Assembly (NCBI RefSeq): GCF_001423125.1
Contig: NZ_LMNW01000001.1
Coordinates: forward strand, 483,433-547,432
DNA from: Duganella sp. Leaf126
GTDB lineage: Bacteria > Pseudomonadota > Gammaproteobacteria > Burkholderiales > Burkholderiaceae_D
Direction of reading: 5' to 3'
Length of the DNA: 64,000 bases
Shown: in pieces, positions 3,599 to 16,578 of the stretch
How the letters are laid out: every line of letters begins with the position of its first letter
Numbering within the stretch: position 1 is the first letter of the stretch
Notes under the pieces: model-generated
What the model was told of the DNA's origin: nothing
Database searches by the model: none
What the model saw: the letters and a program-made list of their open reading frames with translations, nothing else
Made by a program: the position numbers and the translations under genes

Positions 3599-4779
3599 GC
3601 TGCCAGCACTTGCCGGTACACGGCGGCGGTGCGGCGCGCCGCGTCGTCCCAGCGCATCGCCAGCGCGCGCTGCCGGCCGGCGGCAATCAGGCGCGCGCGC
3701 ACGCCGTCGTCGCGCGCCAGCGTGCCCAGGGCAGCGGCGATGTCGTCCACCGACAGCGGATCGAATTCCAGCGCTGCGCCCTGCGCCACCTCGGGCAGCG
3801 ACGCGGCATGCGCGCAGGCCACCGGCACGCCGCTGGCAAACGCTTCGAGCAGCGGCAGGCCGAAGCCTTCGTACAGCGACGGAAACACGAAGGCGCCGGC
3901 GCCCGCGTACAGGTGGCGCAACTGCATGTCGTCGGTCACGCGGTCGAGCCAGACCACGCGCTCGCCGCGCTCGCGCGCCGCCTTCAGGCGCTGCACCAGT
4001 TCGGCGCTGCGCCAGCCCGGCGCACCGGCGATCACCAGCTGCCGCGCGGCGCGCAGCACCGGCGGCAGCGCCAGGTAGGCGTCGAGCAGGCGTCCAACGT
4101 TCTTACGCGGCTGCAGGGTGCCGACGCACAGGTAATAGCCGGCCTGCAAGCCATAGTGCGTCAGGGTGGCCGCCAGCGCTGCGGGCGCGGGCGCCTCGAA
4201 CCACTGGGCGCCCACGCCGTGGTGCAGCACGCTGATGCTGCGCGCGTCGATGCCGAAGTGTTCGACCAGCTCGCGCGCGGCAAACTGCGACGGCGCGATC
4301 ACGTGCTGCGCCTTGCGCACGGCGCGCCGTTGCAGCCAGTTTTTCAGGCGCCGCCACTTGGGATTGCACCAGTGCGGGTGCGAGACGGGCAAGGCGTCGT
4401 GCAGGGTCGCCACCACCGGGCAGTCCATGCGCACGATGCGGTAATCGGTGGCGTGGAACAGGTCCAGCCGCTTGCTGTCACCGCCTGCGCCGGCGGTCAG
4501 CGTACGGCTCACGTCGAGATAGGCGCCGGCCGGCAACAGCAGGTCCCCGAGCGTGGCGACCGGAAACGACAGCGGCAGCGCGCGCCCGGCGCTGAGCGGC
4601 GCGCCGCCGCCGGGCGGGGCAAAGCTGAACGGCAGCACCTCAATGTCGGCGGCGCCCGGCAAATGCTCGAGCAAGGCCCGCGTGTAGACACCGATGCCGT
4701 CGATGCGCCCGCCGGTCAGCGCCGGCTCGATCATGGTGGTGGACAGACCGACCCGCAACGGCGCTGCCACGCCGCTCAT
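3595..4779 (-). CDS. GT4-type glycosyltransferase
   Basis: This 394-residue enzyme resembles mannosyl- and rhamnosyltransferases of O-antigen clusters. Recognisable parts are the N-terminal VGLSTTMI with GGRIDGIGVYTRALLEHL, the central HATDYRI and VATLHDALPVSHP, then YYLCVGTLQPRKNVGRLLDA and the donor site FPSLYEGFGLPLLEAFASG. The ATG overlaps the TGA of the reductase gene upstream as ATGA, so I prefer it to longer in-frame starts. The likely donor is GDP-D-rhamnose supplied by the two preceding enzymes. That inference rests on context. Confidence 0.87.
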   Translation of the reverse strand: MSGVAAPLRVGLSTTMIEPALTGGRIDGIGVYTRALLEHLPGAADIEVLPFSFAPPGGGAPLSAGRALPLSFPVATLGDLLLPAGAYLDVSRTLTAGAGGDSKRLDLFHATDYRIVRMDCPVVATLHDALPVSHPHWCNPKWRRLKNWLQRRAVRKAQHVIAPSQFAARELVEHFGIDARSISVLHHGVGAQWFEAPAPAALAATLTHYGLQAGYYLCVGTLQPRKNVGRLLDAYLALPPVLRAARQLVIAGAPGWRSAELVQRLKAARERGERVVWLDRVTDDMQLRHLYAGAGAFVFPSLYEGFGLPLLEAFASGVPVACAHAASLPEVAQGAALEFDPLSVDDIAAALGTLARDDGVRARLIAAGRQRALAMRWDDAARRTAAVYRQVLAA

Positions 4780-5723: not shown

Positions 5724-9252
<3,529 letters not shown>

Positions 9253-14689: not shown

Positions 14690-15244
14690 ATGGCCATGGA
14701 TCAGCACAAGCTGCGCACCCTCGTATTTGAAAAAACCGGCGTCCGGATCGATATCGACGATCCGGTGTTTGCGCTGGTGGCCCTGAACGAGGCGGTGCTG
14801 GAAGACGCGGTGGAACGCCACGTTGCCGCCATCGACAGCGCCACGCGCGAACTGCTGCGCCGCGCCCGCGACGCCGGCGGCCTGCCGCCGGAGCGCCACC
14901 GCGGCCACGACGCCTCCAATGAGCTGGGCCCGGACGACGCGGCGCATGCCGGTGCGGCGCCGGTCGCGGCTTCGGTCACTGCGCCCGGCGCCGGCAGCGC
15001 CACCACGCATCGCGACAGCAGCGCTGTCCACATCACCGTGCGCGAGTGGCGCCTGCTGGCGGCAGCGGCCGGCGTCGCCGTCCTGTCGGCGCTGCTGGTG
15101 CTGGCCGGCCAGGCGGCATTCACCAAGCCCGGCCCCACTGCCGCCCAGCTCCGGAGCCTGCAGGAAGCCGAACAGTTAAAAGCGGCCATCGACCGGCTCG
15201 ATCCCAAGCTGCGTGCTGAAGTGCGGTCGCAGCTTCCCAGATAA
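14690..15244 (+). CDS. TraM-like membrane protein paired with the TraL-like ATPase
   Basis: This 184-residue protein has an N-terminal region (KLRTLVFEKTGVRIDIDD followed by PVFALVALNEAVLE) that recalls TraM of IncP plasmids. A Ala/Gly/Pro-rich linker follows around residues 80-110, then one membrane helix near 117-138 (LLAAAAGVAVLSALLVLA) and a short charged tail. It probably anchors in the inner membrane with its N-terminus in the cytoplasm. It begins six bases after the TraL-like stop. A second in-frame ATG lies six bases later. Confidence in the TraM relation is moderate, because such proteins are short and diverge fast. Confidence 0.55.
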   Translation: MAMDQHKLRTLVFEKTGVRIDIDDPVFALVALNEAVLEDAVERHVAAIDSATRELLRRARDAGGLPPERHRGHDASNELGPDDAAHAGAAPVAASVTAPGAGSATTHRDSSAVHITVREWRLLAAAAGVAVLSALLVLAGQAAFTKPGPTAAQLRSLQEAEQLKAAIDRLDPKLRAEVRSQLPR

Positions 15245-15342
15245 TTTCCGCTGAACTTGTCAGCCTCGCCCGACTCCAACCGTTCGACCGGTTAGATCCA
15301 CAATATGTGGTTCAACTGCGTTGGGATCTGCTACGCTCGATC

Positions 15343-15360
15343 GGTTGTCACTTGACAACC
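15343..15360. promoter_or_regulatory. Perfect 18-bp palindromic operator of the HicA-like/HTH pair
   Basis: GGTTGTCACTTGACAACC is a perfect inverted repeat with eight-base arms and a two-base centre. It covers the -35 box of the promoter for the next two genes, so a bound repressor would block RNA polymerase. The HTH protein encoded by the second gene is the obvious candidate. A second small palindrome, CCACAATATGTGG, lies at 15298-15310. Confidence 0.65.
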
Positions 15361-15380
15361 ACGAGTCCTTTATCTAGTAT
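15352..15380 (+). promoter_or_regulatory. Promoter of the HicA-like/HTH pair
   Basis: A perfect -35 TTGACA (15352-15357) is separated by 17 bases from TAGTAT (15375-15380). Transcription would begin near 15387, only a few bases before the ATG at 15391, so the message may be nearly leaderless. Confidence 0.6.
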
Positions 15381-15390
15381 GAGAGCTGCC

Positions 15391-15654
15391 ATGGCACGCA
15401 ACCGCCATCCGAACAAGGAAGTAGAGCAGGCAATCCGCCACGCCGAACACCATGGTTGGCGGGTGATGGTCGGCGGCAGTCACGCCTGGGGAAAACTCTA
15501 TTGCCCCTATAACGACAGCGAGTGTCGTTGCGGAACTTTTTGCATAGCAAGTGTCTGGAGCACACCGCGAAATCCCAGCAGTCACGCGCGGGATCTCCGC
15601 AGGGTCGTCGATCACTGCACGGCGAACCGACATCAGAACGATGGAGCACAATGA
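15391..15654 (+). CDS. HicA-like putative toxin with a cysteine cluster
   Basis: This 87-residue basic protein has the order of elements found in HicA mRNA-binding toxins. An N-terminal helix is followed by HHGWRV, then GGSHAWGKLYCPY in the place of the HicA G-S-H catalytic strand, and a C-terminal basic helix SHARDLRRVVDH. Between them is CPYNDSECRCGTFC, whose four cysteines could bind zinc; ordinary HicA lacks this. The start at 15391 is preceded by GAGAG; an ATG at 15379 is in frame but has no ribosome site. Its stop overlaps the next start as ATGA. Toxicity is inferred from fold resemblance and gene pairing. Confidence 0.6.
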   Translation: MARNRHPNKEVEQAIRHAEHHGWRVMVGGSHAWGKLYCPYNDSECRCGTFCIASVWSTPRNPSSHARDLRRVVDHCTANRHQNDGAQ

Positions 15655-16175
15655 TGGAATACGAATTTACGCTCAAGTACCAACTCGATGCGGCCGATTG
15701 TCATGTCGACGACCTGATCGAACGGCTGGGTGCGGCCGGCTGCGACGATGCGCTGATCGGTACCGGACAGGCAGGGCAGCTGGGGCTCAAGTTCAGTCGT
15801 GAAGCGGGGTCGGCCAAAGAAGCCTTGAGGAGCGCACTGGAGGACATCCGTGGCACCATACCAACGGCAAAGCTGGTGGAGGCAGGTCCCGATTTCGTGG
15901 GTCTGACCGACGTCGCGGAGTTGATGGGCATGAGCAGACAAAACCTGCGCAAGCTGATGGTCACCAACCCTGCCACGTTTCCTCTGCCGGTGCACGAGGG
16001 CAGTTCGGGCATCTGGCACCTGGCAGATCTGCTCGGCTGGCTGCAAGAAAAGGAATATGCTGTGGAAGAAGGTATGGTCGAAGTCGCCCAAACTACGCGC
16101 CAGCTTAATCTGCTCAAGGAGCTGCAGCGCCTGCCTGCGGAAATCGATGGCGAAATGCGCAAGTTGTTGGCATGA
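15651..16175 (+). CDS. Helix-turn-helix protein, putative antitoxin and autorepressor
   Basis: This 174-residue protein has an N-terminal alpha/beta domain of about 75 residues (EYEFTLKYQL, then LKFSREAGSAKEALRSALE), which may bind the partner. A MerR/excisionase-like helix-turn-helix follows around residues 85-115 (VGLTDVAELMGMSRQNLRKL), with a C-terminal helical tail. It is translationally coupled to the HicA-like gene by ATGA (ATG at 15651, a second at 15654). The 18-bp palindrome on the shared promoter is its likely target. Relatives are generally annotated only as DNA-binding proteins. Confidence 0.62.
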   Translation: MMEYEFTLKYQLDAADCHVDDLIERLGAAGCDDALIGTGQAGQLGLKFSREAGSAKEALRSALEDIRGTIPTAKLVEAGPDFVGLTDVAELMGMSRQNLRKLMVTNPATFPLPVHEGSSGIWHLADLLGWLQEKEYAVEEGMVEVAQTTRQLNLLKELQRLPAEIDGEMRKLLA

Positions 16176-16212: not shown

Positions 16213-16234
16213 CATATGAATACCTATTCATATG
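16213..16234. promoter_or_regulatory. ArsR/SmtB-type operator
   Basis: A perfect inverted repeat with ten-base arms CATATGAATA and TATTCATATG separated by CC lies 17 bases before the arsR-family start. It matches the imperfect ATA-rich 12-2-12 operators of metal-sensing ArsR/SmtB/CzrA repressors. The regulator most likely represses its own operon here. Confidence 0.8.
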
Positions 16235-16251: not shown

Positions 16252-16578
16252 ATGAGCTGCCAACACGATTACACCGGCTGCGATCCTGCGATTGCCGAGC
16301 TGGCCGACCTGTTCCACCTGCTGGGCGACCCGACCCGGCTGCGCATCGTGCTGGCCTGCGTGGCCGCGCCGATCGCGGTCAGCGATATCGCCGCCTCGCT
16401 CGATCTGAGCAGCTCGCTGGTCAGCCACCACCTGCGCCTGCTGCGCGCCGCGCGCATCGTCAAGTCCGAGCGCCAGGGCAAGCAAGTGTTTTATTCCGCC
16501 GCCGATGCCCATATCAGCGGTGTCCTCAACGATATGCTCGAGCATATCGCCGAACCGGCCAACGGGAGCGACGCATGA
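16252..16578 (+). CDS. ArsR/SmtB-family metal-responsive repressor
   Basis: This 108-residue winged-helix protein should bind the adjacent palindrome and release it when metal binds. The DNA-recognition helix is in LDLSSSLVSHHLRLLRAARI, followed by the wing KSERQGKQVFYSAAD. Possible ligands are Cys3, His5 and Cys10 at the N-terminus and Asp/His residues near DAHISGVLNDMLEHI in the last helix, the alpha5 site of zinc sensors. Its stop overlaps the start of the efflux gene as ATGA. Zinc, cadmium or cobalt are plausible inducers. Confidence 0.9.
   Translation: MSCQHDYTGCDPAIAELADLFHLLGDPTRLRIVLACVAAPIAVSDIAASLDLSSSLVSHHLRLLRAARIVKSERQGKQVFYSAADAHISGVLNDMLEHIAEPANGSDA

Follow-up and report, generated by a model that had tools for sequence, protein, structure and literature searches.

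What do two small, overlapping genes on a 64,000-nucleotide stretch of the Duganella sp. Leaf126 genome (contig NZ_LMNW01000001.1, positions 483,433 to 547,432; the whole stretch is called the window below) encode, and do they form a toxin-antitoxin module? A first-pass annotation had proposed a HicA-like toxin (here A) and a helix-turn-helix (HTH) partner (B) under the control of their own operator. Overall, the data point to a real, mobile two-gene module that is most likely a toxin-antitoxin system and is already listed as a defence candidate. Both proteins match PADLOC profiles over nearly their full length, i.e., PDC-M06A (E 5.7e-48, profile positions 1-84 of 91) and PDC-M06B (E 5.5e-74, positions 1-172 of 174), with the letters A and B following the gene order here. 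By profile matches and adjacency (the genes overlap by 4 nt), the pair is a member of PDC-M06 and hence not an undescribed system. PDC-M06, where PDC stands for phage defence candidate, is catalogued as a candidate name only. The name is absent from the full text of the open-licence PMC papers searched, and no function, operator, fold or toxin/antitoxin assignment was found for it in that literature. Nor were the putative operator, the toxin assignment and the antitoxin architecture proposed here found described in those papers.

The two genes are inherited together. B lies directly downstream of A in all 66 distinct related loci (64 by tblastn, plus two diverged B genes recognized by eye), which bears out the conserved pairing that the first-pass annotation had called for in homologues; as in type II toxin-antitoxin systems, the module consists of two adjacent, co-inherited small genes. 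Left out of these counts were L033 (A and B lengths and upstream sequence as in L004), L144 (same place as L023) and a second copy of the window. Among 19 further loci from the class, both genes were complete in 12, only A was broken in three, both were broken in one, and three had weak A matches without B. The ratio of nonsynonymous to synonymous substitution rates (dN/dS), computed for 18 pairs of loci, was 0.05 to 0.28 for B in all 18 and 0.05 to 0.26 for A in the 16 pairs with A intact and dS computable (excluding L063/L064, dS 0, and L031/L032, A broken). Both proteins are thus under selection.

A search for A gave matches in 32 of the 294 family genomes (two of them weak), in 20 of the 369 that were sampled from the class (four with E above 1e-6), in 36 loci of the genome_contigs set, in 123 plasmid records and in three phage records of two phages; in the viral_contigs set five stretches matched a pattern, none of which was confirmed. 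Hosts included Pseudomonas, Cupriavidus, Paraburkholderia, Pantoea, alphaproteobacteria, cyanobacteria and a Coriobacteriia bin. Identity to the A protein of the window was 69, 61, 59 and 45% in the cyanobacterial loci L036, L040, L045 and L057, the last with an internal duplication, and 52% in the Coriobacteriia bin. Two variants were observed in passing. In L061 (6001-6819) no stop codon separates A from B, which share one open frame, perhaps by a natural fusion and perhaps through a sequencing artefact, and in L068 (a Pseudolabrys bin, 5992-7582) a distant A-B pair lies just upstream of open reading frames (ORFs) that by eye resemble terminases of phages or gene transfer agents.

Upstream of A lies the 18-mer GGTTGTCACTTGACAACC (15343-15360), with perfect 8-bp arms around a non-complementary CT centre. 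The first-pass annotation had described a perfect 18-bp palindrome covering the TTGACA -35 box; its place and its overlap with the -35 box hold, whereas only 16 of the 18 positions pair. A search of the window for the operator pattern, with up to three mismatches allowed, gave a single occurrence (0.11 expected), and the core, TTGTCANNTGACAA, is found at a single place across the whole 5.3-Mb genome. Of 67 loci (the window, L001, included), 46 carry this core unchanged upstream of A and 60 carry it with at most one mismatch, cyanobacterial loci and the Coriobacteriia bin among them. The exact 16-mer GTTGTCANNTGACAAC was present in 29 of the 294 family genomes and at an A-B or B locus in 25; the four genomes with the 16-mer elsewhere equal in number those showing the reversed control pattern. 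An integron attC site was also considered for the palindrome and dropped, the half-sites being a misfit to the GTTRRRY core, a judgement made without a tool test. A viral contig (L072) also has the identical 18-mer, at 4540-4557, with a small HTH-like ORF on one side and a further ORF on the other; neither A nor B was seen by eye in the 1.5 kb read.

A promoter scan of the window placed TTGACA-17-TAGTAT with its last base at 15380; this is a single site, where shuffled sequence gave 0.5 on average. TTGACA is unbroken at the operator place in 58 of 60 loci and is followed by TANNNT at a spacing of 15 to 19 in 42 of the 60 (39 at 17), compared to 7.9% for the -10 box in shuffled downstream DNA. 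With transcription assumed to start 7 nt past the -10 box, the window's message would begin about 4 nt before the ATG of A, as the first-pass annotation had foreseen in suggesting a nearly leaderless toxin message. Predicted leaders measured 3 to 7 nt in 33 of the 42 promoters and 10 to 43 nt in six, and in the other three the start fell within the coding region, which marks those promoter calls as wrong. Most predicted promoters of the family would hence give a near-leaderless A message. The conserved palindrome over the -35 box, a putative operator, suggests a binding site at which B, or an A-B complex, would block the box; it may serve autoregulation of the type II kind.

Which of the two genes might be the toxin is indicated by how they decay. 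Among 88 loci (window included, completeness scored by a length rule), both genes were complete in 72, B was complete with A broken (seven) or absent (three) in 10, A was complete with B cut in one, and both were broken or unrecognised in five. B is twice as long as A, so chance breakage would be expected to affect B more. The count excludes the phage loci L002 and L003 and nine loci with only the B N-domain or a broken piece (L133-L139, L142 and L143). L029 passed as complete under the length rule despite a frameshift that alters A from about residue 60 on, and the weak A matches without B in L220, L222 and L223, probably spurious, were placed in the last class. Because L031 and L032 probably represent one event, three of the ten loci were fetched precisely for lacking A, and nine loci were excluded, the excess decay of A over B is a trend and not a clean test. 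Two loci are instructive about the parts of B. G210 (L131) keeps the operator and B with A reduced to a scar, and L023, the single locus with the reverse pattern, keeps A and the N-domain of B with the HTH of B and the operator both lost. The decay pattern fits A as toxin and B as antitoxin and repressor, and these two loci fit an N-domain of B that would neutralise A and an HTH that would read the operator.

The layout of the locus is given in Table 1. The ATGA shared by the two genes, reported by the first-pass annotation, was borne out, and A has an alternative in-frame ATG upstream at 15379 that would give 91 aa.

Table 1. Features of the A-B locus of Duganella sp. Leaf126 (window positions)
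Feature	Position	Strand	Basis
Putative operator, perfect 8-bp arms and 2-bp centre, GGTTGTCA-CT-TGACAACC	15343..15360	no strand	
-35 box TTGACA, inside the right half of the operator	15352..15357	+	promoter scan
-10 box TAGTAT, 17-bp spacer	15375..15380	+	promoter scan; TANNNT at a spacing of exactly 17 in 41 of 60 loci
Gene A (PDC-M06A), candidate toxin, possible HicA-like fold, 87 aa	15391..15654	+	
His31 codon of A, candidate catalytic residue	15481..15483	+	position computed from 15391
Cysteine insert of A, C38-x6-C45-x-C47-x3-C51	15502..15543	+	computed from 15391
GGAG, likely ribosome-binding site of B, within gene A	15643..15646	+	read from sequence
ATGA shared by genes A and B	15651..15654	+	
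Gene B (PDC-M06B), candidate antitoxin and repressor, 174 aa	15651..16175	+	
B residues 2-79, predicted ferredoxin-like domain	15654..15887	+	computed from 15651
B residues 82-135, predicted winged HTH, AlpA/excisionase-like	15894..16055	+	computed from 15651

Protein A had been called HicA-like. Its model, with a predicted alpha-beta-beta-beta-alpha order, resembles HicA chains, whose fold is dsRBD-like; the resemblance is weakly supported, and the fold prediction does not contradict HicA. His31, invariant in 71 of 71 aligned relatives, pairs with the GSH histidine of HicA in a weak profile alignment, that is, at the place where HicA may have its catalytic histidine. The alignment (A2) comprised 60 of the 120 homologues listed out of 235, plus 11 loci. 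Model and histidine resemble HicA, but the sequence does not show kinship: a Pfam search of A returned no family at E up to 1, HicA_toxin (PF07927) included, and profile-profile probabilities against HicA were 17 and 7.6. A Foldseek search with the A model gave nothing significant, and neither A nor B had a match at E up to 10 in a PDB sequence search. Weak matches of A in NCBIfam (E 0.046 and 0.081) and to pPIWI_RE_Z (E 0.028) were taken as chance. Among PHROGs, A matches phrog_5923, of unknown function. The four cysteines pointed out by the first-pass annotation are present, at residues 38, 45, 47 and 51, and are retained in 64 of 71 relatives; lost in the distant ones, they do not define the family.

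The N-domain of B is predicted to be ferredoxin-like (strand-helix-strand-strand-helix-strand). The first-pass annotation had set B apart from HicB by its HTH. B does have a predicted HTH, but this does not separate it from HicB because E. coli HicB has one too, according to the excerpt of PMC11594946; what sets B apart is the predicted fold of its N-domain, HicB having a partial RNase H fold in the same excerpt. HicB was not among the structural matches listed for B, which does not in itself exclude kinship. A match of B to AbiEi_4, below the Pfam cut-off (E 0.17), fits only an HTH and was discarded. Pfam and NCBIfam held nothing convincing for either protein, and Rfam and tRNA scans of the window returned nothing. 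The B alignment (A1) comprised the query, 41 of the 120 homologues listed out of 2584, and 13 loci. The N-domain was also seen fused to a different C-terminal part (L137 and L138) or alone, at about 85 aa (L133 and L134), and looks like a shuffled module that can take other partners.

Several lines of evidence bear on how the pair reached its present site. The upstream neighbour is a 184-aa gene (14690-15244) with no Pfam match; downstream lie an ArsR-type regulator gene (16252-16578) and a cation efflux gene. A homologue of the ArsR gene was present in all 60 same-genus genomes searched, and in 17 of the 30 ArsR loci fetched the upstream gene was in the same stretch. These 17 comprise the window with A and B, G106 with only the N-terminal part of B, and 15 loci with neither gene, in 11 of which the flanking genes are 68 to 293 nt apart (coordinates read by eye). 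Judged by these sites, A and B have the look of inserted DNA, of which G106 would keep a relic at the matching position. In line with the low GC noticed by the first-pass annotation, GC content at 15340-16175 is 58.0% against 65.6% for the window, within the lowest 2.9% of 836-bp stretches, and third-position GC is 0.61 in A and 0.69 in B against 0.82 to 0.90 in four neighbouring genes, which suggests a recent arrival.

The junction with the ArsR gene has features of its own. Near-perfect palindromic inserts bounded by GGGGTCAG...CTGACCCC were seen upstream of this gene in the same-genus loci L176, L190, L193, L201, L202 and L204 and look like a small repeat family. In the window, a palindrome with a 2-bp centre, CATATGAATACCTATTCATATG (16213-16234), lies immediately ahead of the ArsR-type gene and is probably the regulator's own operator; same-genus loci have a similar motif in front of this gene.

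Related pairs occur on the phage-plasmids Cyrano (CYRAN_51/50) and SSU5 (SSU5_055/054), with homologous A and B in the same order; unlike the window pair, to which they are 32 to 38% identical, they lack the Cys4 cluster and their genes are 52 to 60 nt apart. Upstream of A, Cyrano has an inverted repeat with 7-bp arms holding TTGACA (GTTGACA-nn-TGTCAAC, as in L066), whose left half-site is the -35 box. SSU5 has by eye a looser repeat with TTGACT, and no palindrome with arms of at least 6 bp was listed there. Expression of the Cyrano pair was 30-fold and 14-fold above the prophage median in the excerpt of PMC9928086, and of 5426 complete E. coli genomes, 110 have near copies of it on plasmids.

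Taken as a whole, we favour, with a probability of roughly 0.6, a small, horizontally moving type II-like toxin-antitoxin module with A as toxin and B as antitoxin and repressor. The original proposal is partly supported: the linkage and a conserved putative operator over the -35 box are borne out, the model and histidine of A resemble HicA, and A decays rather than B, whereas the sequence does not show kinship with HicA and the cysteines do not define the family. The module would probably be carried for stability or phage defence. A would be the toxin, most likely a ribonuclease (RNase) of HicA-like fold using His31, its beta-hairpin perhaps braced by a Cys4, probably zinc, knuckle. The ferredoxin-like N-domain of B would neutralise A, and its AlpA-type HTH, alone or as an A-B complex, would sit on the palindrome and block the -35 box. 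With so short a predicted leader for A and a likely ribosome-binding site of its own for B, the message would yield little A and more B, favouring antitoxin over toxin. Loss or titration of B would then free A, probably as an RNase, to arrest growth.

Three cautions apply. The A protein of L023, the locus that keeps A without the HTH of B, lacks Cys47 and may be weakened. A GGAG frequently abuts the -10 box (read by eye); it may be a discriminator element, or else the true start may lie further upstream, at the expense of the near-leaderless step. Finally, Shi of ICEclc, which derives from HicA and shares its operon with alpA, is non-toxic alone according to the excerpt of PMC6812849.

An alternative that we hold to be unlikely, if the strongest of the rivals, is a dedicated phage-defence module in which A is an abortive-infection effector, set free once B has been removed or titrated by a phage. 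This view partly coincides with the toxin-antitoxin reading, but here defence is the claimed function. The PDC-M06 profile matches and the patchy occurrence of the pair in the family agree with it, as do defence-profile matches (RmrA/RmrT, mad2/3, SoFic and capP, in the first 25 of 47 families) in some of 117 flanking ORFs from 33 loci. These ORFs were picked by a crude longest-ORF rule and scanned with no control set, so that no enrichment is claimed and the defence-island argument was set aside. In the window, moreover, the neighbours with a Pfam match are CinA, the ArsR-type regulator and the cation efflux protein; two other PADLOC candidates gave no evidence of defence in their native host in the excerpt of PMC12409345, and no paper with the name PDC-M06 was found among the open-licence ones searched.

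Less probable again is a mobile-element regulatory pair, with B as an AlpA/Xis-type regulator and A as a non-toxic RNA- or protein-binding cofactor. B does match PHROG excisionase and transcriptional regulator families (phrog_2620 among them; best E 1.5e-19), and the pair is present in SSU5-like phage-plasmids. The precedent is Shi, by description a likeness to our pair: in the excerpt of PMC6812849 it is a small HicA-diverged protein whose operon is headed by alpA, acts with ParA and needs its partner to arrest growth. Yet the 25 commonest of 107 Pfam families in the 117 flanking ORFs include no integrase, par or conjugation family, each of these 25 occurs in six of the ORFs at most, and A decays beside an intact B, as expected of a harmful gene and not of a cofactor.

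The operator itself raises a bolder thought. Of the 42 loci in which the core upstream of A is fully paired, ten (L006, L007, L008, L009, L010, L016, L026, L032, L040 and L055) have arms that extend without a mismatch for 5 bp or more, and up to 14, past the 8-bp core, against a chance expectation of 0.04 such loci. Background palindromes in the same DNA had at least 5 extra bp in one of 25 cases (2-bp spacer) or three of 40 (4-bp spacer) and never more than 5. The extension is lineage-specific in sequence and is not seen in the window's own operator. Across 13 orthologous loci of one genus, the flanks covary, with 15 extra Watson-Crick pair types where shuffling gave 4.15 on average; none of 2000 shuffles, which take no account of relatedness, reached 15. 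The long repeat is either selected or repeatedly re-perfected by template switching. A long shot, accordingly graded low, is a new phylum-crossing toxin-antitoxin or abortive-infection family combining a zinc-stabilised HicA-fold RNase, a near-leaderless message, a ferredoxin-like/AlpA-type antitoxin and, in several lineages, a long, repeatedly re-perfected operator repeat; a hairpin or phage DNA with the same site could then titrate B, the operator serving as sensor.

A diverged but ordinary HicAB system is very improbable and was rejected: gene order and sizes match, the A model resembles HicA chains and the Cyrano pair is annotated as HicA and putative antitoxin HicB, but A lies outside the Pfam HicA family, a PF07927 member of which is present above cut-off elsewhere in the same genome, and carries a Cys4 insert, and the predicted ferredoxin-like N-domain of B replaces the partial RNase H fold of HicB. 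The likeness that remains, set against the HicAB traits in the excerpt of PMC11594946, is a small first gene with the same predicted secondary-structure order and a candidate G-S-H histidine, a predicted DNA-binding domain in the second gene and a putative operator at the promoter.

If the toxin-antitoxin reading is true, a named but uncharacterised defence candidate would acquire a mechanism, toxin and antitoxin roles for its two proteins and an assay that is ready to use. The pair would also join a HicA-like toxin to an antitoxin domain that the excerpt of PMC11594946, a review, does not describe for HicB, under an operator almost unchanged in sequence from phylum to phylum. With near copies of the Cyrano pair on plasmids of E. 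coli, the family would bear on common phage-plasmids.
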